DNA of 43,269 nt from an uncultured Lachnospiraceae bacterium (lineage in GTDB: Bacteria > Bacillota > Clostridia > Lachnospirales > Lachnospiraceae): positions 1-43,269 of the forward strand of contig CAMOIJ010000019.1 in the NCBI GenBank assembly GCA_946615865.1. Reading direction: 5' to 3'. The notes below the pieces were generated by a model. That model saw only the letters and a list, made by a program, of their open reading frames with translations. It ran no database searches and was not told where the DNA came from. Each line of letters opens with the position of its first letter. Positions within the stretch are counted from its first letter, which is position 1. Shown in pieces: positions 14,376 to 25,109 of this stretch. The position numbers were made by a program, and so were the translations under genes.

Positions 14376-16988
14376 ATGGATGATCTGCATTTGAAACAAA
14401 CAGAGAAGAGATGCTTTTCGGTGCTCTCCGGCACATCAAAAAACAGTGAAGAATTCATGGATTCTCCCACCTTTTTCCTGAGCAGAGCCGCTATGAGAGA
14501 CCGGCTTTGGCTTCTGATCTTTTTAGAGGCTCTGATCGCGATCGAAAACGGATCCGAGGAATACTTTGAGACCGACTACATAATGGCCGTCAATGAGTAC
14601 CTGGTCAGGAGATCGGATCTTTCCGTGCGCATGCTCAACACGTGGATCGGGGGACAGAGCTTCCGCTCTATGCAGGAGGTGACGGATTTCTTCAATGACC
14701 GGTACCGGGTCACGGGCCAGTTCTTTAGGGACAATCAGCTTCTGTGCCGCAGGGAGTGGCAGGAAGCCGCTTCCGTATACAGAGCGAGGTGGATCGAGGC
14801 AGTCAGGGCCCAGGAGGATATTCCCGAGGAGCTCGCGCCGTACGATGAGAAACTCGGGGAGCGCAGATTCAGGGAAAATCCGGTGCAGTACCTGCTTGGG
14901 ATCAGGGAGGAAGAGCGGCTTCGTTTTATTGCCCTGATCACAGAGTGCATTTATGAATATGAACATGCGGCCGGAACAAATGTAGCAGTGAGGACCCAAA
15001 AGAGCATCGGAGATTTCGTGAGAGATTTCGGAAACCTGCTCAATACCTATATCAAGTACCCGGAGGACCCGGAGGTCCAAACGCTGACACTGATGGTCCA
15101 TATGGATATGAACAGCAGGGATTTCAAGGACGACGCCAGAAGGAGATCTTTCTTTGGCGAGTACCTGAGGTCCGCGGCGTATAAGTGGCACACAAATTCC
15201 GCAGGCTGCAGGAAAGCGGTGAGTGAGAAATGGGAGGAGTATGGCGCCCTGTTCAGACATTTTCCGCAGGATGCCAATGAGCCCGGAGTACCTGAGCTGT
15301 ATCTTGATGAAGCTGTTCTCAATATTCCGGAATTTCAGAAGGAACCTTTGAAATTCCTCAGACAGCAGATGAAGAGAGAGCAGTCGATCCATTTTTTGAC
15401 GATGCTGCACGCCTCCTCCGGCACTCCGGAGAATTCCGCTCTTGCAGCTTATCTGATCACAAGGTGGCTGTTATCGCCGGAGCAGGAATACGCCACCGAG
15501 ATGGACTCCTTCTTCGGATGGGACAACAGGACTGATGAAGAGAGAAACTTTACGATCGAACAAGCGGTCCGCGATCTCGTATCCATTTGGAGATATAATT
15601 ACAAGAAGTGCAGAAATACGGTGAAGACCGACTGGGCGGTTTTCGAAGAAGCATATGGCCATGTGATCGCCGACAACGTAGTGCCCGAAGACCTTCAGGC
15701 ATTTGCCGACATACTTGAGAATAACGAATTTGTTGAGGACCCGATCAGTATCCTGAGGGATATGGACAAGGAGGAGATCGAGAAGTTCGTCGACTTCTGC
15801 GGAGCCCTCAACGGGATGGATGAACACGACGCCGCAGTATTTGCGGAAGCCGCCATAACCTGGCTTGAAAACCCGTCCAACGACGCCGCGCGGCAGCTGA
15901 TGGACAGGATCGGAGGATGGAAAGCCGCAGGAGTACAGGGAGAGATTTCCGCACTCAGGGATTTCTTTGAAAAATCCGCGGTCTCCTGGAAATTCAATTA
16001 TGGAGGACTCCGAAGCAGCGCGGTGTATAACCGCAAAACCTACTTCCTTGAGCTTTCCGAGCACAAAGGTGAGAACAGAACGGAGAGTTCAAGGCAGGAA
16101 CTCAGGTCCTTTGAACGGATCATGCGGGAGGAGCGTTTTAAGAGTCACCCCGTAAGTTACCTTCGGGGCATGAGCCAGCTGCAGTGCGAGAGGTTTCTTC
16201 TGTATCTGGCCGCTGTATCGGGAATGGATCCGGACAGCGCCCTTCGCTTCGCAGTGATCTTCAAGAACGCGATCTTTTATCCCAACGACGGACTCAGAAA
16301 GAGAGTCGATACGATCCTTGGACGGCGCAGCCGCGACGACAGACAGAGAATGGGATATATTGAGGAACTTCTCAGGGGATCCGTGAGTGAATCGGTAAGC
16401 GATGAAAAGCGCAGGGAAGTTGAAGATAACTGGAGCCTGTACGCAAAGGCGTTTGATGACCGGCAGGAGAAACAGAAGAAAAATCACTGGGAACTCAATG
16501 AACTGGGTGTAAGGAAACTGTTCCGCTACTGCACGACCGGTAAGGAGAGCGCGAGTACAGTAAGACCGGAGGATGAGGGAACAGTCGTCGTTAAACTTCT
16601 GGGAGATGAGGAACCTGTAAGTGTCGGCTTCAAGGATGTTGCATTAAGTTCAGACAGGATCTACAGCGAGCAGGTGGGGGAGATCCTGAGGTTCATGCTC
16701 GGACAGCTTGAGATGTTCCACCTTCGCGGGGAGAACAGGAATCAGCGCACATATCCTGTGACCTACCCCGTCGACAGGATCCGCGTCCGCAGGGATGCTT
16801 ACGGTGAGAAGATACAGTGGACTGATTCTGAAACTACGGTCTGCCAGCTCCTTTATCTGGCTGTGGGAGCGGAACTTCTTCCGCCGATCCATCAGGAAGT
16901 TAACACAAGGAGCGGTGAAGTAACTCTGATACTCAAACTGGATGAAGCCGGCGCTGACAAAATAGAGACGATCCTCAGAAGCATATAA
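14376..16988 (+). CDS. Unknown 870-residue protein with five diverged ~135-aa repeats
   Basis: I do not recognise this family. There is no signal peptide, membrane segment or catalytic motif that I can name, so it is probably cytosolic and mostly helical. Five repeats open with F-x3-P-x2-[FYI]-L at residues 27-35 (FMDSPTFFL), 165-173 (FRENPVQYL), 320-328 (FQKEPLKFL), 452-460 (FVEDPISIL) and 588-596 (FKSHPVSYL). Spacings are 138, 155, 132 and 136. Each is followed by a helix of L-x2-M-x6-F type, and four of the five end near a W (W128, W286, W420, W686). The C-terminal domain (about 707-870) is different, beta-rich, ending SGEVTLILKLDEAGADKIETIL. AGGA lies at 14365-14368. It follows metA by 61 bases and may be read through from it. 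Confidence 0.85.
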   Translation: MDDLHLKQTEKRCFSVLSGTSKNSEEFMDSPTFFLSRAAMRDRLWLLIFLEALIAIENGSEEYFETDYIMAVNEYLVRRSDLSVRMLNTWIGGQSFRSMQEVTDFFNDRYRVTGQFFRDNQLLCRREWQEAASVYRARWIEAVRAQEDIPEELAPYDEKLGERRFRENPVQYLLGIREEERLRFIALITECIYEYEHAAGTNVAVRTQKSIGDFVRDFGNLLNTYIKYPEDPEVQTLTLMVHMDMNSRDFKDDARRRSFFGEYLRSAAYKWHTNSAGCRKAVSEKWEEYGALFRHFPQDANEPGVPELYLDEAVLNIPEFQKEPLKFLRQQMKREQSIHFLTMLHASSGTPENSALAAYLITRWLLSPEQEYATEMDSFFGWDNRTDEERNFTIEQAVRDLVSIWRYNYKKCRNTVKTDWAVFEEAYGHVIADNVVPEDLQAFADILENNEFVEDPISILRDMDKEEIEKFVDFCGALNGMDEHDAAVFAEAAITWLENPSNDAARQLMDRIGGWKAAGVQGEISALRDFFEKSAVSWKFNYGGLRSSAVYNRKTYFLELSEHKGENRTESSRQELRSFERIMREERFKSHPVSYLRGMSQLQCERFLLYLAAVSGMDPDSALRFAVIFKNAIFYPNDGLRKRVDTILGRRSRDDRQRMGYIEELLRGSVSESVSDEKRREVEDNWSLYAKAFDDRQEKQKKNHWELNELGVRKLFRYCTTGKESASTVRPEDEGTVVVKLLGDEEPVSVGFKDVALSSDRIYSEQVGEILRFMLGQLEMFHLRGENRNQRTYPVTYPVDRIRVRRDAYGEKIQWTDSETTVCQLLYLAVGAELLPPIHQEVNTRSGEVTLILKLDEAGADKIETILRSI

Positions 16989-17050
16989 AAAGGGCTTGTC
17001 CAAAAAACTGCGCTTAACGAAATAATATAGATATTTATTAAATTTTTATA

Positions 17051-17079
17051 TTTACACTTGGAATCAACAAAAATATAAT
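17051..17079 (+). promoter_or_regulatory. Promoter of the zinc-ribbon/hydrolase pair
   Basis: TTTACA (17051-17056), a 17-base spacer and a perfect TATAAT (17074-17079) in a strongly AT-rich stretch after the repeat-protein gene. The leader is about 55 nt, ending with AGGAGG at 17126-17131. Confidence 0.75.
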
Positions 17080-17140
17080 AGAAAAGTGAGATTCCTAAAG
17101 GGAATGATTATAGACGTACTGGTACAGGAGGTTTTGAAAC

Positions 17141-17968
17141 ATGTCTGGTAAAGATCCGGAACTGTCACGACTTGGAGAGGCACTCAGCAGTGCAAGATCT
17201 GCATACGCAGAAGCAAAAAAAATCACAGATGAGGCCAAGGCGCGCCTGAATGAAACAGGTAGCAGGATCCAGACCTTTAATGCGAAGATCACCGAGCTGA
17301 AGAAAGGAATTGACTCTGAGTATAACGCTATGAGAAGTGAGCGCGCTGGCGGCGACAGAGATGCGGCCGACGAGCATCGCTCGATGGCACAGTCAATGCA
17401 GGAGAAACTCACTGAGATCTATGAATCCAAGAAATCCTGCTTCGGAGAGCTTGATGAAGCGCGGGCAGCGTTCAACAAAGCCCTTGACGCCCAGAAGATC
17501 CTCAGGGATAAGGTCCAGGAAGCATGGGACGGATTTAACGCAAGGCTTGAATACCTGAAAGAGGAAAATGCTAAGGAACAGGCCAAGTGGAAGGAGAAAC
17601 CCTGCAAGATCTGCGGAGTTCCGATCCGTTACAATATTGAGTGGAAGCACATACCGAACCTTTGCAAGGAATGTTTTGACAAAGATAAGGAAAACTGGGA
17701 AGACCGCAAATGCGCCAAGTGCGGCAAGACTTTCAGGATCAATAAGGGCTGGGAGCATATTCCCACGATCTGCGGCGACTGCAGAAAGATCGTAAGGGCA
17801 GAGAAATCAGCCAGAATGCAGGCGGAGAAGGAAGCTCAGGAAGAGAGCGCCAGACTTGCGCGCGAGGAGAGGGAGGCTGCGGCTTCTGCTCTTGTAGACG
17901 TCGCCAACGAGGCCGTAAGCGAGATCGCTCCTGCCTTGGAGGTATCGGAGAATGTCCGAAATATTTGA
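17141..17968 (+). CDS. Coiled-coil protein with two tandem C4 zinc-ribbon motifs
   Basis: 275 aa, function unknown. Residues 1-145 are charged and alanine-rich with the look of a long coiled coil (SARSAYAEAKKITDEAKAR). Two near-identical zinc-binding units follow, each C-x2-C-x17-C-x2-C: one runs from CKICG to CKEC, the next from CAKCG to CGDC. They share an internal W-[EK]-H-I-P core, so they arose by duplication. A second charged helix (AEKEAQEESARLAREEREAAA) and a short tail end the protein. It may bind nucleic acid or a partner protein. The stop overlaps the start of the next gene by 17 bases, so the two are translated together. AGGAGG is nine bases before the ATG. Confidence 0.85.
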   Translation: MSGKDPELSRLGEALSSARSAYAEAKKITDEAKARLNETGSRIQTFNAKITELKKGIDSEYNAMRSERAGGDRDAADEHRSMAQSMQEKLTEIYESKKSCFGELDEARAAFNKALDAQKILRDKVQEAWDGFNARLEYLKEENAKEQAKWKEKPCKICGVPIRYNIEWKHIPNLCKECFDKDKENWEDRKCAKCGKTFRINKGWEHIPTICGDCRKIVRAEKSARMQAEKEAQEESARLAREEREAAASALVDVANEAVSEIAPALEVSENVRNI

Positions 17969-18863
17969 AGTTACGATCAGAAGCGGGGAAACGCTCAAAG
18001 GCTGGCACTGGCCTGCGAAAGACCCTGTGACAAATCTTACGATCATTACCGGAATGAATGAATACGCGAAGCGCTATGAGCCGTTTGCGGAATGGATGAA
18101 TGAGCAGCATGTCAATATTTGGTGCCTTGACGCTTTCGGACAGGGACTTAACGCGCCGTCTGAAGATATGCAGGAGAGATGGCCGGAGGGCGCTTTTGAC
18201 AAAACAGTTAAGGCGATCTTTCAGATGGTGAAGCTTGCGTCTTCCAACGGCCTTCCCACTTTTCTTATGGGCCATTCTATGGGGTCCTTTATTGTACAGG
18301 CGTATTTGGAAAAGTATCCGTGCAGTACGAACGGCATTATTCTGTGCGGATCCAACGGCGGACAGGCAAGTCTGATGAAGACAGGATACACCCTTGCAAG
18401 AAGCATTGTGCGCGACAATAACTGGTATCAGAGCAGTCCCGCCCTGCAGAATATGGGAATGGGGAGTTTCTCCAAAGCGGTAAAGGACCGGGAGACGGAT
18501 TACGACTGGCTCTCATACAACAAGGAAAACGTTCAGGCCTATATCAACGATCCCTGGTGCGGACACGAGAACACCGGAGGTTTCTGGAAAGAGTTCCTTA
18601 AGGGGCTCTCCAGGATCTGGGACAAGAACGAGATGGCCAAGATATCCCGCAGAGAGAAGATTTACATCATTTCCGGACAGGATGATCCGGTCGGCCGCAT
18701 GGGGAAAGGACCGGTATGGCTCTGGAGAAAATTCAGAAGTCTCGGACTTACAGGAGCAACTTTAAAACTATACCCGAATATGAGGCATGAGATCCTCAAT
18801 GAGACCGGTAAAGAGATCGTCTATAAAGATGTTCTCAGTTTCGTCCAACCCGGTTACAGATAG
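17952..18863 (+). CDS. Alpha/beta hydrolase, lysophospholipase-like (S33/Hydrolase_4)
   Basis: 303 aa. The nucleophile elbow G-H-S-M-G-S is clear (FLMGHSMGSFIVQAYL). The acid is probably the aspartate of ISGQDDPVG and the histidine is in NMRHEILNE, giving a full triad. The overall pattern is that of monoacylglycerol lipase/lysophospholipase-like hydrolases. There is no signal peptide, so it acts in the cytosol or at the inner membrane face. It overlaps the zinc-ribbon gene and shares its promoter; why a zinc-ribbon protein is coupled to a hydrolase is not evident. A hairpin terminator lies directly behind the stop. Confidence 0.9.
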   Translation: MSEIFEVTIRSGETLKGWHWPAKDPVTNLTIITGMNEYAKRYEPFAEWMNEQHVNIWCLDAFGQGLNAPSEDMQERWPEGAFDKTVKAIFQMVKLASSNGLPTFLMGHSMGSFIVQAYLEKYPCSTNGIILCGSNGGQASLMKTGYTLARSIVRDNNWYQSSPALQNMGMGSFSKAVKDRETDYDWLSYNKENVQAYINDPWCGHENTGGFWKEFLKGLSRIWDKNEMAKISRREKIYIISGQDDPVGRMGKGPVWLWRKFRSLGLTGATLKLYPNMRHEILNETGKEIVYKDVLSFVQPGYR

Positions 18864-18900
18864 AATATACAAATAGGATATAGCCTGTTTGTATATTTTG
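18864..18900 (+). terminator. Terminator hairpin after the alpha/beta hydrolase
   Basis: A 14-bp AT-rich stem, AATATACAAATAGG (18864-18877) and CCTGTTTGTATATT (18884-18897), with one G-T wobble and a six-base loop. The T run is short (ATATTTTG). Confidence 0.65.
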
Positions 18901-18946
18901 ACCAAAACCACCCGTTTACATGCTTTCTTTTAGTGGATTCCCACAT

Positions 18947-18976
18947 CTTACAATTTGCGCTTTTCAATGTTAAGAT
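18947..18976 (+). promoter_or_regulatory. Candidate promoter of the PurF-like gene
   Basis: CTTACA (18947-18952), an 18-base spacer and TAAGAT (18971-18976), with TGT before the -10 box giving an extended -10. I see no purine riboswitch and no PurBox that I would defend in 18898-19028. Confidence 0.45.
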
Positions 18977-19028
18977 TAGCGTGTTGTAACCGATGTGCGA
19001 ATTATCGCTCAATATCTAAGGAGGCAGC

Positions 19029-20453
19029 ATGGGTGGTTTTTTTGGCGCCGCATTGCGTGAGGATGTGGCATTTGATCTGTTTTATGGAACGGACTATCAT
19101 TCACACCTTGGAACAAGGCGCGCCGGTATGGCGCTTTATGATTCGAAAAGCGGGTTTGACAGGGCGATCCACAACATAGAGAGCTCGAATTTCAGGCCTA
19201 AATTTGAAAAAGATCTGGCAAAGATGAAGGGAAATCTCGGCATAGGGTGCATCAGCGATTATGAGCCCCAGCCGCTGATCGTCCGCTCGCATCATGGCAC
19301 TTATGCCATTACTACTGTGGGACGGATCAACAATATCAGGGAACTGACGGATATGCTTTTTGGCGGTACGCACTCTCATTTCCTGGAAATGAGCGGCGGC
19401 GATATCAATCCCACCGAGATGGTCGCCTCCCTGATCAACCAGAAAAAGGATATTCTCGAGGGAATAAAGTATGCGCAGGACATGATCGAGGGCTCTATGA
19501 CATTCCTGATCATGACGCCCAAGGGCATCTATGCTTCCAGGGATAAGTGGGGCAGGACTCCCTGCGTGATCGGAAAGAAGGATACAGGGTACTGTGTATG
19601 CTTTGAGAGTTTCTCCTTCCTCAATCTCGGATACACGACGGAGAAAGAACTCGGCCCCGGCGAAGTTGTTTTCATCGATCCGGAAGGATATGAAGTAAAG
19701 ATACCGGCCCGCAGGGAGATGAGGATCTGCAGCTTTTTATGGATCTATTACGGATTCCCGGCGTCCTCCTACGAGGGACTTAATGTCGAGGACATGAGGT
19801 ACGGCTGCGGCCGCAAACTTGCGGAAAGAGACTTAAAGCGCGGAAACATTCATCCCGACTGTGTCGCGGGCGTTCCGGATTCAGGCGTCGCGCACGCCAT
19901 TGGCTACGCGAACAGATCAAACGTCCCCTATTCGAGACCGTTTGTGAAATATACGCCCACATGGCCCAGGTCCTTTATGCCGACTCATCAGAGCAGGAGA
20001 GACCTGATCGCCAAGATGAAGCTGATCCCGATCCACGAACTGATCGCGGGCAAAAAACTCCTCCTGATCGACGATTCCATTGTCAGGGGCACTCAGCTCA
20101 GAGAGACTACCGAATATCTGTACAGCAGCGGCGCAAGCGAAGTACACATAAGACCCGCCTGTCCGCCCCTTGTGTTCGGATGCAAGTACCTCAACTTCTC
20201 CCGTTCAGACTCTGAGGAAGAACTGATCACGCGAAGAAAGATCGAGATGCTCGAGGGAACATCCAAATTAACGGATGAAATGGTCGAAAAGTATACGGAT
20301 CCCGATTCGGACCAGTACCACGCAATGCTCGAGGAGATCAGGAAAGAACTGAATTTCACATCCCTGCATTACCACCGTCTTGACGATATGATCGAAGCGA
20401 TCGATCTTGAGCCCTGCAAGCTGTGCACATACTGCTGGAACGGAAAAGAATAA
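19029..20453 (+). CDS. PurF-like phosphoribosyltransferase without a glutaminase active site
   Basis: 474 aa, aligning along the whole length of glutamine PRPP amidotransferase, the first enzyme of purine synthesis. The phosphoribosyltransferase half looks intact: PRPP loop LLLIDDSIVRGTQ (345-357) and GVPDSGVAHAIGYA. Cluster-type cysteines are kept at C234, C385, C463, C466 and C469, as in the 4Fe-4S B. subtilis enzyme. The glutaminase half is not intact. The N-terminus is MGGFFG where active PurF has MCGVFG, so the nucleophile cysteine is glycine. The arginine of the HVRYST motif and the asparagine of HNGNL are also absent (CISDYE, TVGRI). It may use free ammonia or have another role. AAGGAGG lies at 19018-19024. 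Confidence 0.85.
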   Translation: MGGFFGAALREDVAFDLFYGTDYHSHLGTRRAGMALYDSKSGFDRAIHNIESSNFRPKFEKDLAKMKGNLGIGCISDYEPQPLIVRSHHGTYAITTVGRINNIRELTDMLFGGTHSHFLEMSGGDINPTEMVASLINQKKDILEGIKYAQDMIEGSMTFLIMTPKGIYASRDKWGRTPCVIGKKDTGYCVCFESFSFLNLGYTTEKELGPGEVVFIDPEGYEVKIPARREMRICSFLWIYYGFPASSYEGLNVEDMRYGCGRKLAERDLKRGNIHPDCVAGVPDSGVAHAIGYANRSNVPYSRPFVKYTPTWPRSFMPTHQSRRDLIAKMKLIPIHELIAGKKLLLIDDSIVRGTQLRETTEYLYSSGASEVHIRPACPPLVFGCKYLNFSRSDSEEELITRRKIEMLEGTSKLTDEMVEKYTDPDSDQYHAMLEEIRKELNFTSLHYHRLDDMIEAIDLEPCKLCTYCWNGKE

Positions 20454-20466
20454 AGACATAAGAAAT

Positions 20467-20498
20467 AGGCTGCCACACTGAGGTGACAGCCTTTTTTT
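20467..20498 (+). terminator. Terminator between the convergent PurF-like gene and citrate synthase
   Basis: A stem of AGGCTG-C-CAC and GTG-A-CAGCCT (20467-20476, 20483-20492) with one mismatch, then seven T residues. It serves the plus-strand gene. On the minus strand the following tract (TATTTCTT) is poorer, so it may work only weakly for gltA. Confidence 0.85.
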
Positions 20499-20519
20499 CG
20501 TTTGAAGTGTATTCGGCTT

Positions 20520-21875
20520 TTATCTCTTCTTCATCGGGACATATTTCTGATGATCGCCGATATATTTGGTAGCGGGACGCATGATCTTTCCGTCGTACAT
20601 CTTGTTCTCAACGTTGTGGGCGACCCAGCCGGCTACACGCGCGATCGCGAACAGAGGCGTAAAGAGATCTTCCGGGATGCCCAGCATCGTGTAGGCGAAA
20701 CCTGAGTAATAATCCACGTTTGTGCAGATCGGCTTTCCGCGGTTCTCAAGGACTGCTTCCTTGACAATGTTCTCGAATTTGGAGTAGAACTTATATCTCT
20801 CGGGGCAGCCTTGCTCTTCCGCAAGAGTCTTGCACAGAGAGCGGAGAAGTTCGCATCTGGGATCGCTCAGAGTGTATACGGCGTGGCCGAATCCGTAGAC
20901 CAGGCCGGAATTGTCAAAATAGTCCTTATCCAGGATCCTGTCCACAATGGAGCGCAGAAGCGCATCGTCACAGGAGTATTTCGTGTCGGCGATGATCTGC
21001 TGCATCATCTTGTTGACGCTGATGTTGGCGCCGCCATGCTTGGGACCCTTGAGGGAGCCGATGGAGCCGCAGACAGCGGAGTACAGATCGGTCCCGGTCG
21101 ATCCCATAACGACGTTGGTGAAGGTGGAGTTATTTCCTCCGCCGTGATCCGCGTGGATCATGAGGATCGCGTCGAGAACAGACGCCTCACGCTCCGTGAA
21201 CTTTCCATCGCTCCTTAGCATGTACAGGATGTTCTCCGCAATTGAGTACTCGGGTCTGGGATAATGTATGATAAGCGACTGCCTGTAAAAATGGTGCATC
21301 TTGGCAAAGTAGGAATAGCACCCGATGGAAGGAAACTTAGCCACAAGATCAATACCCTTGAGCAGGGTCTGATAGACATCCTGCGCATCCGGATCCAGAG
21401 CGTAATTGTAGAGAGAGATCGTACTGGACTGGAGCTTATTCATGAGATTCCTCGAGGGAGTCTGAAGAATATCGTTTGTGAGGAAATCTGCGGGAAGATC
21501 GTAGCGGGCCGAGATGCATTTCTTGAAGTTGTCAAACTCGGTGCGGTCAGGAAGGTAGCCGAACAACAGGAGAAAGACCGTCTCCTCGTAGCCGAAATGG
21601 CCCTGACGGTTTTTTAAAAGATCCCGGATGCTGTAGCCCCGATAGATCAGGTCGCCCTCACAGGGCACAACGTTCCCGTCTGCGTCTTTTGTGTATCCAA
21701 TGACGTCGCTTACCTTGGTGAGGCCGATACGGACGCCTGTACCGTCATCATTTCGAAGTCCTTTCTTGACATTGTACTCTTTGAAGAGCGGATTTGGGAT
21801 ATCTGTATAGTTGGATGATCTGCCGAAGAATCTCGCCAGGATGTTGTCATCGTGGAAATTCAGGTTATTATCCAT
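20520..21875 (-). CDS. gltA: Citrate synthase
   Basis: 451 aa, somewhat longer than the ~430 aa type II enzymes but within the range of the clostridial group. It condenses acetyl-CoA with oxaloacetate, feeding 2-oxoglutarate and glutamate synthesis in an anaerobe. The catalytic residues are visible: the histidine of MIHADHGGGNNS, the histidine of YGFGHAVYTLSDPR and the aspartate of CTNVDYYSGF. A family-typical arginine follows in IARVAGWVAHNVE. The minus-strand start has AGGAGAT (plus 21881-21887). It is a single-gene unit; no aconitase or isocitrate dehydrogenase is next to it. Confidence 0.96.
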   Translation of the reverse strand: MDNNLNFHDDNILARFFGRSSNYTDIPNPLFKEYNVKKGLRNDDGTGVRIGLTKVSDVIGYTKDADGNVVPCEGDLIYRGYSIRDLLKNRQGHFGYEETVFLLLFGYLPDRTEFDNFKKCISARYDLPADFLTNDILQTPSRNLMNKLQSSTISLYNYALDPDAQDVYQTLLKGIDLVAKFPSIGCYSYFAKMHHFYRQSLIIHYPRPEYSIAENILYMLRSDGKFTEREASVLDAILMIHADHGGGNNSTFTNVVMGSTGTDLYSAVCGSIGSLKGPKHGGANISVNKMMQQIIADTKYSCDDALLRSIVDRILDKDYFDNSGLVYGFGHAVYTLSDPRCELLRSLCKTLAEEQGCPERYKFYSKFENIVKEAVLENRGKPICTNVDYYSGFAYTMLGIPEDLFTPLFAIARVAGWVAHNVENKMYDGKIMRPATKYIGDHQKYVPMKKR

Positions 21876-21927
21876 AATGGATCTCCTTTTTGAATCATTG
21901 TATACAAGGATGCATTGGTTTCTGCCT

Positions 21928-21936
21928 ATTATAACA
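21928..21936 (-). promoter_or_regulatory. Extended -10 promoter element of gltA
   Basis: On the minus strand, TGT followed directly by a perfect TATAAT (plus-strand ATTATA at 21928-21933, ACA at 21934-21936). No convincing -35 box lies 16-18 bases upstream, which is acceptable for an extended -10 promoter. Confidence 0.55.
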
Positions 21937-21974
21937 TGTTCTCAATATTTTAAAACAGGAAATTGCTCGTGATG

Positions 21975-22129
21975 TTGAGATTTTTACGGGGGAAATGGTA
22001 TCATTATAAGAGTTTCGGGAGCGTGTTTTGCCTGCCGGAGACCGGCGGCGGACTATAAACCGCTCAAAAATGCGTAATGTATGGGGGAGTTCCGGCCTGT
22101 AACTTGTGACCGGAGTGGAGCGTTACAAT
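21975..22129 (+). promoter_or_regulatory. Candidate promoter and leader of the histidine kinase operon
   Basis: TTGAGA (21975-21980), an 18-base spacer and TATCAT (21999-22004). The leader of about 120 nt has a hairpin GCCGG-AGA-CCGGC (22034-22046) and a second GCGG/CCGC possibility just after it. I do not recognise a known riboswitch here. Confidence 0.45.
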
Positions 22130-23854
22130 ATGAAAGCTAATAATTCAGAACCTGCCAGACCGGCGGCGGATTTAAATGAGGAAGGCGGTGGACTTTCTTC
22201 GAGGCAGAAAGTGATCCTCGACGCGCTCCTTCGTGAATACGAAGTGGCGCTGATACTGGATATGTCGAACGATTCTTATGAGATCTTCAAGATTGCAGGA
22301 AGATTCTCAAGAACCCTGTCCGGAATGTTCAGGGACAAGTTTTCTCTGACAATGCTCGAGATAGCGGACAGCTGTATCTACGCGTACGACTATGATCTGT
22401 TTATCGGAGCCGTGAGTCTCGAGAGCCTTAGGAGCAGGCTTGAGAGCGACGGATTCTGCAGTTTTGTATTCAGGGCGATCACAAGCAGAGGACCGGAATA
22501 CTTCAGGATGAGAATGATACAGGCTGAGGACGGCCCTAAGGCCTTCGTCGGCGTATCCTGCATCCAGGATGAGATGAGCAGGGAACTGCAGCAGAGAAGG
22601 CTGTTCGAAGGAGCTCTCGACAGAGCAAGGAGCGCCGATTCGGCAAAGAGCACTTTCCTCACCAACATGTCTCACGATATCAGAACTCCCATGAACGCGA
22701 TCATGGGATTTACAAAAATTGCGTCTTCTCATCTCGATGACAAAGAGAAGGTCAGGGACGCCCTTGAGAAGATCCGGACTTCCAGCAACCATCTTTTAAG
22801 GCTGATCAACGACGTGCTTGACATGAGCAGGATCGAGAGCGGCAGGATCACGATCAATGAAAACAGATGCGACCTCAGGGACCTTGTGGAGAAGATCCGT
22901 GGTATCCTTCAGCCGCAGATCACGGCCAAGAACCTTACCTTTACGATCGACACAGCGTCGGTGGTGAACTATGAAGTGTACTGCGACGAAACAAGGATCA
23001 CCCAGGTCCTCTTAAATCTCCTGAGCAATTCGGTCAAGTACACGGAGCCCGGAGGTTCTATAAGCCTTATGATCCACCAGAAGCCGTATCAGAGCGGCCG
23101 AAGATACTGCGGCTATGTGTTCAGGGTGACCGACAACGGAATCGGCATAGGAAAGGGCTTTATCGGCCATGTCTTCGAACCCTTTGAGAGAGAGACGGGA
23201 AGGATCGAGAATAATTCTTACGGAAGCGGCCTCGGAATGTCCATAGCCAAGGGTATCGTGGATATGATGGGCGGTAATATCAGTGTGGAGAGCGAGGAGA
23301 ATGTCGGCACTGAGTTCGTAGTCGACCTGGAATTCAGGCCGGCCGGCGAGAATAACTCTGAAGCTAATGAAAACGATAAACAGGAAGTAAAAGGCCTCGA
23401 AGACGGGGATATGGCAGTGTTCGAGGAACGCGGCAGCGCAAACGGAAAGAAAAGCTCCGATGTGGGATGGATAGAGGGAAGGAGACTCCTTCTTGTTGAA
23501 GACAATCCGCTCAACAGGGAGATCGCCGAAGATATGCTGATCGAGGACGGCTTTAAAGTGGAGACGGCAGAGAACGGGAAGAAGGCCCTGCAGAAGATCA
23601 TTGAATCCGACCCCTGGTATTACTCAGCTGTACTGATGGATATTCAGATGCCTGTCATGGACGGATATGAGGCGACAGAGAGAATCCGCTCCCTGCCCGA
23701 CCGGAGCAGGGCGCAGATCCCGATCATCGCAATGACTGCCAACGCATTTAAGGAAGACCGCTGCAAGGCCGCGGAAAGCGGAATGGACGCTTACATTACG
23801 AAACCGGTGGATGTGCTCACTCTGCGCTATGTGCTGAGGCGGGTGCTGCGATAG
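22130..23854 (+). CDS. Cytosolic hybrid histidine kinase with C-terminal receiver
   Basis: 574 aa from ATG 22130. No membrane segment is seen. The N-terminal ~165 residues look like a degenerate PAS-type sensor. HisKA follows with the phospho-accepting histidine in [16 protein letters not shown]. The ATPase domain has an N box ([14 protein letters not shown]), [10 protein letters not shown] and [12 protein letters not shown] linker rich in E, N and K leads to a receiver domain ([40 protein letters not shown]). There is no output domain, so phosphate would have to pass on to another protein. GGAG at 22112-22120 favours ATG 22130; a GTG at 22106 is possible. It lies 14 bases before udp, which is unusual company for a kinase. 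Confidence 0.92.
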
Positions 23855-23868
23855 GAAAGGAGACAAAT

Positions 23869-24651
23869 ATGATACCGGCTTATTCGATCGATCCAGAAAG
23901 ACAGTACCATATTCAGGTGGCGAAAGGTGAAGTGGGCAGGTACGTTCTGCTGCCCGGTGATCCGAAGCGATGCGCGAAGATCGCGCAGTATTTTGACGAC
24001 CCGGTAATGGTGGCAGACAACAGAGAGTATATAACTATTACGGGGACAGTGGACGGCGTCAGGCTGAGCGTGACTTCTACAGGCATCGGCGGGCCTTCCG
24101 CCGCGATCGCTCTGGAGGAACTGGCGAACTGCGGAGCTGACACTTTTATCAGAGTCGGCACATGCGGAGGCATGCAGGAGGAGGTACTGAGCGGAGACCT
24201 GGTGATCGCGTCGGGCGCGATCCGCATGGATGGCACCAGCAGAGAGTACGCGCCCATTGAATATCCTGCAGTCTCGGACTATGCCGTCTTAAGGGCTCTT
24301 GAAGACGCGGCGCAGAAGCGGGGCGAGAGATATCATATCGGCGTCGTACACTGTAAGGACGCGTTCTACGGACAGCATAACCCCGAGCTTCTTCCTAACA
24401 GCGCAGTGCTGCTGCAGAACTGGGACGCTTATCTGAAATTGGGATGCCTGGCCTCGGAGATGGAATCCGCAACCCTGTTCATAGTAGGCGGATACAGAAA
24501 AGTGAGGACCGGCACAGTCCTTCTGACAATGGCCAATCAGACCAGAGCGAAGAAAGGCCTGCCCAATCCCATTGTCCATGACACGGACAGCGCGATCAGG
24601 ACTGCGATTGAGGCTGTTAAGATCCTTGCGCGCATGGACTCCGCGGAATGA
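23869..24651 (+). CDS. udp: Uridine phosphorylase
   Basis: 260 aa. It splits uridine with phosphate to uracil and ribose-1-phosphate in pyrimidine salvage. NP-1 family motifs are clear: LPGDPKRC at the phosphate site, [16 protein letters not shown], and the ribose-binding [18 protein letters not shown] and the [11 protein letters not shown] segment also fit uridine phosphorylase better than the purine enzyme. AAAGGAGA precedes the ATG. The gene lies between the histidine kinase and cytidine deaminase with gaps of 14 and 17 bases; cdd would supply its uridine. Confidence 0.93.
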
Positions 24652-24668
24652 AAAGAGGACGGTGAGAT

Positions 24669-25109
24669 ATGGGAAACAATAAGATCACTCTGAGCGGAGA
24701 ACTTATTACCACTCTGATCGGGGAGGCGCTCTCTATGAGAACACGCTCCTATATACCCTATTCGGGATTTGCCGTGGGCGCGGCTCTTCTCACTGCCAGC
24801 GGAAAGATCTACGGAGGGTGCAATATTGAAAACGCGGCTTATCCGGCTACGATCTGCGCGGAGAGAACAGCTATGGTGAAGGCTGTGAGTGAAGGGGAGC
24901 GCGGATTTCGGGCGATCGCGATCGCAGGCGGCAGAGAAGTAGATCCGGAAGGGTACAGCTATCCCTGCGGCACCTGCAGACAGTTTATGCGCGAGTTCTG
25001 CGACAGTGAAACCTTCGTTGTCATTGTGGCAAGAAGCAGGGAGGACTATAAGATATTCACGCTCGAGGAACTCCTTCCGAGCTCTTTCGGCCCGGAGTCC
25101 CTTGTCTGA
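24669..25109 (+). CDS. cdd: Cytidine deaminase
   Basis: 146 aa, a typical homotetrameric small cytidine deaminase. It converts cytidine and deoxycytidine to uridine and deoxyuridine. The zinc site is complete: the C-A-E of ATICAERTAMVKA supplies a cysteine and the proton-shuttling glutamate, and PCGTCRQ supplies two more cysteines. YSGFAVGAALL and NIENAAYP complete the substrate pocket. The product feeds the udp gene immediately upstream. GGACGGTGAG precedes the ATG. Confidence 0.95.
   Translation: MGNNKITLSGELITTLIGEALSMRTRSYIPYSGFAVGAALLTASGKIYGGCNIENAAYPATICAERTAMVKAVSEGERGFRAIAIAGGREVDPEGYSYPCGTCRQFMREFCDSETFVVIVARSREDYKIFTLEELLPSSFGPESLV

Follow-up and report, generated by a model that had tools for sequence, protein, structure and literature searches.

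A bacterial PurF-like family without a glutaminase site and its probable role as a glutamine-independent phosphoribosylamine synthase

Purine synthesis is taught as depending on glutamine at its first committed step. The window analysed here, a stretch of 43,269 nucleotides from an uncultured Lachnospiraceae bacterium (contig CAMOIJ010000019.1), encodes at 19029..20453 on the + strand a 474-amino-acid PurF homologue whose glutaminase is, judged from its sequence, dead. This raises the question of what a PurF without a glutaminase site does. We consider it probable (roughly 0.7) that the PurF-like protein is a glutamine-independent, probably ammonia-dependent 5-phosphoribosylamine (PRA) synthase serving de novo purine synthesis. 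Gene content gives good support to a role in the purine pathway; the chemistry, the use of ammonia as donor and the role of the N-terminal domain are inferred.

The protein scores 179 bits against the PurF model TIGR01134 and does not reach the curated cut-off of 350 (NCBIfam). Its closest solved relative is Bacillus subtilis PurF (4.6e-46), and a whole PurF fold is predicted for it despite the absent glutaminase site. Our main alignment contained 120 PurF-like members over 440 aa and 29 true PurFs. Gly2 (codon 19032..19034, +) replaces the catalytic N-terminal Cys; residue 2 is Gly in 118 and Ser in 2 of the 120 PurF-like members, while it is Cys in all 29 true PurFs. Across 122 distinct members, with the truncated row L022 (no N terminus) left out, it is Gly in 120, Ser in 2 and Cys in none. 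At the canonical LQHRGQE region lies DYHSHLGTRR (residues 22-31, 19092..19121, +), and LQHRGQE of true PurF has mostly become [HN]SHLGT[RK] in PurF-like members. Here D22, Y23, S25, H26, L27, G28 and T29 are each found in 120/120; H26 and G28 are also present in PurF, and Leu27 occupies the PurF Arg position. The glutamine loop is reduced to a remnant (residues 76-80, 19254..19268, +) that is 5 residues long in 120/120 PurF-like members versus 13 in 29/29 true PurFs, and both Arg73 and Tyr74 are absent. TVGR (residues 96-99, 19314..19325, +) stands at the HNGN position, which is mostly TVG[KR] in the family, with Val (116) or Ile (4) in place of Asn among the 120 members. The Asp127 region is alignment-dependent (Gly in 89/94 in one alignment, a gap in the 120-member alignment) and was not relied on.

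The PRTase half of the protein is retained. The flexible loop starts with KYTPTWPRSFM (residues 307-317, 19947..19979, +), where PurF has KNxYVGRTFI, and its Lys and Arg are kept; K307, R314, R324 and K331 are retained in 119-120 of the 120 members. The PRPP-binding loop DDSIVRGTQ (residues 348-356, 20070..20096, +) retains D348, D349, S350, R353, G354 and T355 to the same extent (119-120/120), as well as I351 and V352 in 94/94 of an alignment of 94, while the canonical final Thr is Gln356 in 119/120. Since the flexible loop and the Thr-to-Gln change both differ from PurF, catalysis may differ as well. All four putative 4Fe-4S ligands are found in 120/120 members: Cys234 (19728..19730, +), which aligns with a Cys in 29/29 true PurFs, Cys385 (20181..20183, +), and Cys466 and Cys469 of the CTYC motif (20424..20435, +). 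Our data therefore bear out the initial annotation in reading the PurF nucleophile as Gly (MGGFFG), the glutamine-binding Asn as lost (HNGNL to TVGRI), and the PRPP loop and likely 4Fe-4S cysteines as remaining. Its reading of the glutamine-binding Arg (HVRYST to CISDYE) was right as to loss but not as to substitution, since Arg73 was deleted along with its loop.

Escherichia coli residue numbers were placed provisionally on alignment columns. On that basis we take E. coli K349, R342 and R371 to be K331, R324 and R353 here (119/120 each), T333 to be Ser315, and I335 to be a Met in 112/120 members; Y74 is presumably gone with its loop. The passages of PMC7953260 on ligand contacts in PurF list R73, T76 and G102 among those to a glutamine analogue and include R342, K344, K349, R371 and T333 among those to cPRPP, and assign a wall of the ammonia channel to Y74 together with I335. 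Because the glutaminase site is absent, glutamine-dependent PRA synthesis by the PurF-like protein appears very unlikely.

The gene itself is intact, with no internal stop in an open frame of 477 codons. A strong Shine-Dalgarno sequence, AAGGAGG, lies at 19018..19024 (+), and direct reading of the sequence places an in-frame TAA at 19017..19019 (+), four codons 5' of the ATG. The initial annotation had named an upstream start giving a cysteine after processing as a possible refutation; because of this stop codon, no upstream start could supply one, and a wrong start concealing a Cys is ruled out. The claim that the gene has its own promoter could not be established, as a consensus scan of the + strand found no sigma-70 site in the gap upstream of the gene. 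A 16-base block, TTTAGTGGATTCCCAC, lies at 18929..18944 (+) and is found at the same place in the relatives L003, L004 and L005/L085, and is absent from L006; this comparison had nine rows, of which L084, L086 and L087 (wrong strand) give no information. The block is possibly part of a promoter or operator. With up to 2 mismatches allowed, it occurs only once in its own genome, and it is kept in L005 although the L005 gene is near saturation at silent sites. A known riboswitch upstream was rejected, with 0 Rfam matches at gathering score in 17000-22200 and a sole listed match at E 0.64. Downstream, a consensus scan alone gave a terminator-like stem of 10 pairs (20467..20492, strand "." and reported on the - strand), which sits between the PurF-like gene and a convergent citrate synthase gene. 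The neighbors of the PurF-like gene in the window are an alpha/beta hydrolase and this citrate synthase, with no adjacent purB. Two proteins encoded upstream, of 870 aa (14376-16988) and 275 aa (17141-17968), match nothing in Pfam, and nothing in NCBIfam above a curated cut-off, and both are retained in the close relatives L003-L005. Further downstream, at 23869-25109, a uridine phosphorylase gene is paired with a cytidine deaminase gene; the citrate synthase and a hybrid histidine kinase come before them.

The family is widespread. A scan of genome contigs gave at least 595 candidate stretches, at least 573 of them encoding a relative, and 80 were kept as loci; among the window's own genome and 40 relatives, 35/41 have a match, true PurF included. 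When 43 members, thinned at 80% identity, were placed in one tree with 29 true PurFs, the PurF-like proteins formed one clade cleanly apart from true PurF with 100/100 support, and this clade is also present in Bacteroidales and Peptoclostridium. Four of eight pairwise comparisons (70-89% identity) gave dN/dS of 0.04-0.07; the 99% identical L003 gave 0.18 with few changes, and the other three were saturated and not measurable. These data support purifying selection on the gene and agree with the initial description of it as intact, selected and not decaying. A same-genus genome, G016, has an interrupted PurF-like copy (C16:49765-51176) with one TGA and an end that is a separate overlapping match, and it carries a second, true-PurF-like match elsewhere. 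The expectation that such genes are annotated as ordinary PurF held for two of the three annotated relatives checked (Bacteroides finegoldii, Parabacteroides distasonis and Peptoclostridium acidaminophilum), which are named amidophosphoribosyltransferase, and failed for the third, a "hypothetical protein"; a fourth relative's record, from Phocaeicola, has no annotation.

Does the PurF-like protein coexist with true PurF? The check for a second copy with Cys1 in the window's own genome (106 contigs, 88% complete) was positive: there is one further match, a PurF with a normal ECGVFG start and 32% identity, and the genome also has PurD. This true purF adjoins a gene that is carA-like (carbamoyl-phosphate synthase small subunit) by eye (L002, 1477-4186), and no recognised purine gene is adjacent to it within the 4.2 kb stretch. 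Our sample of the order comprised 245 genomes, 244 at 96% completeness or more and the window's own at 88%. The PurF-like gene is carried by 108 of these, and with a single query that finds both kinds, a second match turns up in 93 of these carriers, in most cases probably true PurF, and in 15 there is none. Being an obligate partner of true PurF is thus ruled out by these 15 carriers. With G394, a genome outside the order added from a phylum sample, there are 16 PurF-less carriers. None of the 16 has a TIGR01134 match over the cut-off; their best match is the PurF-like protein at 156-199 bits, which in every case begins [MV]GG and holds DDSIVRGTQ. These genomes are assemblies of 98-100% completeness, so that single gaps are possible, but 16 matching gaps are unlikely, and no PurF was seen in their purM-purN-purD regions.

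We found that PurF-less carriers keep the purine pathway. PurD, PurM and PurL are each over cut-off in 16/16 PurF-less carriers (the PurL match of G394 has one internal TGA) versus 1/12 genomes with neither protein, and none of these 12 has TIGR01134 PurF over the cut-off. The probability of 16/16 versus 1/12 by chance is 6e-7, with shared ancestry ignored. The single exception, G436, keeps the pathway with neither protein and has the first 34 PurF positions at a contig end; several of the remaining 11 have weak matches below the cut-offs. PurD was found in 107/107 carriers tested (the 16 PurF-less ones, 10 plus 80 with two or more matches, and the window's own genome; carriers G538 and G580 stand outside this count), and the controls gave PurD in 10/10 genomes with two matches and 10/10 with true PurF only. 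Absence of true PurF as such is not commoner in carriers (15/108) than in non-carriers (13/137; p 0.19), while absence with PurD kept differs between carriers and non-carriers at p 5e-5, assuming that G436 is the sole such non-carrier. The genome G465, with only a weak match (5.1e-4), was counted among the 13 non-carriers and left out of the PurD test. Overall, lack of true PurF is coupled to pathway loss in the tested non-carriers and not in carriers. The 15 PurF-less carriers of the order span 13 genera, 14 with the genus of G394, and 7 of the 13 (g292, g299, g311, g17, g373, g382 and g384) also include a carrier with two or more matches; nine PurF-less genomes in the thinned tree are scattered over several places. 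G612, a single contig, has neither protein and no PurD, PurM or PurL over cut-off; its congener G660 has both PurD and the PurF-like gene.

Gene order was compared over 96 loci, 80 from the contig scan and 16 from PurF-less genomes; because gene calling was simple, the counts are lower bounds. In at least 13/96 loci (8 of the 11 named ones are Acetatifactor) the gene immediately upstream, on the same strand, is purB, and in at least 14/96 the stretch contains purA, purB or purC. L058 and L063 show the full order purC-purF-purB-[PurF-like]-purA, and other loci show parts of it. In the PurF-less genome G545 (L142) the order is purC-purB-[PurF-like]-purA, without purF, and it is identical in PurF-less G527 (L137). 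Names were HMM-checked for purC, purB and purA of L142 and for purF and purB of L055, and the rest were assigned by clustering with these. A different context is found in Bacteroides finegoldii and Parabacteroides distasonis, where pepT and gcvT come after the PurF-like gene (L165, 9564-11904, and L166, 9464-11783, both Bacteroidales), and in Peptoclostridium acidaminophilum, where pepT comes after it (L164, 8574-9800). This adjacency may point to a link with peptide and glycine breakdown, which releases ammonia.

Taken together, comparison of sequences and gene content shows that the glutaminase site is lost and the PRPP site kept, that the gene is under purifying selection and associated with the purine pathway, and that in some purine-pathway genomes the PurF-like protein is the sole detectable PurF homologue. 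In the reaction we favor, the PRTase half would bind Mg-PRPP and convert PRPP and NH3, either free or from another enzyme, to PRA and PPi at the PRTase site, and PRA would be passed on to PurD. The N-terminal Ntn/glutaminase domain would persist for a structural, gating or regulatory purpose, with invariant residues of its own. The protein would work beside Cys-PurF in the window's own genome and as the only PurF found in some others. Given that 93/108 carriers have a second match, the protein in the window's own genome may do something additional. Gene content is compatible alike with free ammonia, ammonia delivered by a partner, or another amine.

The invariant residues of the N domain suggest a ligand or partner. 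D22, Y23, S25, L27, T29, H48, S76, D77 and S87 are found in 120/120 members, unlike in PurF, which is more than a passive scaffold seems to need. A separate glutaminase or ammonia-releasing enzyme might therefore dock on the degenerate N domain and feed the PRTase site in place of bulk ammonia, and pepT and gcvT after the gene in the two Bacteroidales species, or pepT in Peptoclostridium, would fit such a partner. We regard this version of a PRA synthase as unlikely, since no neighbor family recurs in more than 14/96 loci with simple gene calling, and no relatives of pepT and gcvT were found in the loci searched for them, all of which are from the window's phylum. The initial annotation offered an ammonia-dependent synthase, a different amine donor or a regulator. 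That the 15 PurF-less carriers and G394 retain PurD, PurM and PurL favors the synthase and disfavors a pure regulator with little or no catalytic activity, for instance a sensor of PRPP or nucleotides or a subunit modulating true PurF. Catalytically dead paralogues acting as regulators are a known pattern, and most carriers do have a second match, usually true PurF; with the PRPP-site residues conserved as well, we consider a regulator improbable.

The family-specific loop KYTPTWPRSFM and Gln356 of the PRPP loop would also be compatible with a different amine as acceptor of the phosphoribose, and with another product. PurF-less genomes would then need to obtain PRA otherwise, for example non-enzymatically or from a TrpD side reaction. 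PurD in every carrier tested and the location within purC-purB-purA clusters in some genomes speak against it, so that a different amine donor, though conceivable, seems very improbable. We give almost no weight to a recent pseudo-enzyme or an annotation error, such as a decaying paralogue or a wrong start. The interrupted copy in G016 is what such decay would look like, but 122 distinct sequences lack the Cys, dN/dS is low where measurable at distance, the family forms a single fully supported clade, and a stop codon lies in frame upstream. Decay of the family as a whole is ruled out by the first three of these. A glutamine-independent PRA synthase thus remains our preferred reading.

How does the family compare with known systems? 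It resembles PurF (EC 2.4.2.14; TIGR01134) in whole-length homology, predicted fold, PRPP loop, 4Fe-4S cysteines and association with the purine pathway, and differs from it in lacking Cys1, the Arg and Tyr of the glutamine loop and the HNGN Asn, in its separate side of the tree, and in the scores in the 16 PurF-less genomes, which lie far below the TIGR01134 cut-off. Beta-lactam synthetase and carbapenam synthetase (1jgt, 1q15), which have a synthetase domain of the asparagine-synthetase type, are not PRTases and belong to a different pathway. The closest precedent is crenarchaeal PurF', whose activity is itself putative. In the passages of PMC3261824 (Brown et al. 2011) that describe it, PurF' is a PurF paralogue without the N-terminal Cys, encoded near purF and other purine genes, and an ammonia-dependent PRPP aminotransferase is one possibility named for it. 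The likeness is drawn from that published description; as to gene context, purB directly precedes the PurF-like gene at some loci and not in the window. In PurF' as described there, Ala or Val frequently takes the place of the Cys, and every crenarchaeon carries one PurF and one PurF' gene, while our family has Gly, is bacterial, and is the only PurF found in some genomes. According to Mei and Zalkin 1989, as cited in PMC3261824, replacing Cys1 of E. coli PurF by Ala or Ser leaves an enzyme that uses ammonia and not glutamine. The nucleophile is lost in both cases, and the ammonia use reported in that citation is a feature of the E. coli enzyme, a laboratory point change; our family occurs in nature, and its N domain is rebuilt. 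In the open-licence literature searched, we found no paper on the bacterial PurF-like family.

What is new is the order-wide profile in which PurF-less carriers keep the purine pathway; the altered PurF itself has a partial precedent in archaea. The profile concerns a large bacterial family that is usually annotated as ordinary PurF, that would be unable to use glutamine by any known mechanism, and that provides the only PurF homologue detected in purine-pathway genomes of 14 genera. If our reading is true, the nitrogen source given for the first purine step in models of rumen and gut bacterial metabolism is wrong, and the ammonia-dependent PRPP aminotransferase suggested in 2011 gains a bacterial case that is testable in culture. 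The conserved but site-less N domain also makes a good case of Ntn domain reuse. The rumen and gut are rich in ammonia. We tentatively propose, with clearly less confidence than in the synthase itself, that a natural and widespread PurF lineage abandoned glutamine and that its glutaminase domain was rebuilt as a ligand- or partner-binding module controlling or feeding an ammonia-using PRA synthase. Many gut and rumen anaerobes might then start purines from ammonia, some of them without a glutamine-dependent PurF.

We also observed that three of the four sampled genomes of family f34 (G048, G087 and G120) have five matches each to the PurF model. The best PurF-model matches in these three are far weaker than usual (7.5e-92, 3.8e-74 and 6.0e-92, respectively; the fourth genome, G193, has 5.8e-123), and the three genomes perhaps encode another divergent PurF.
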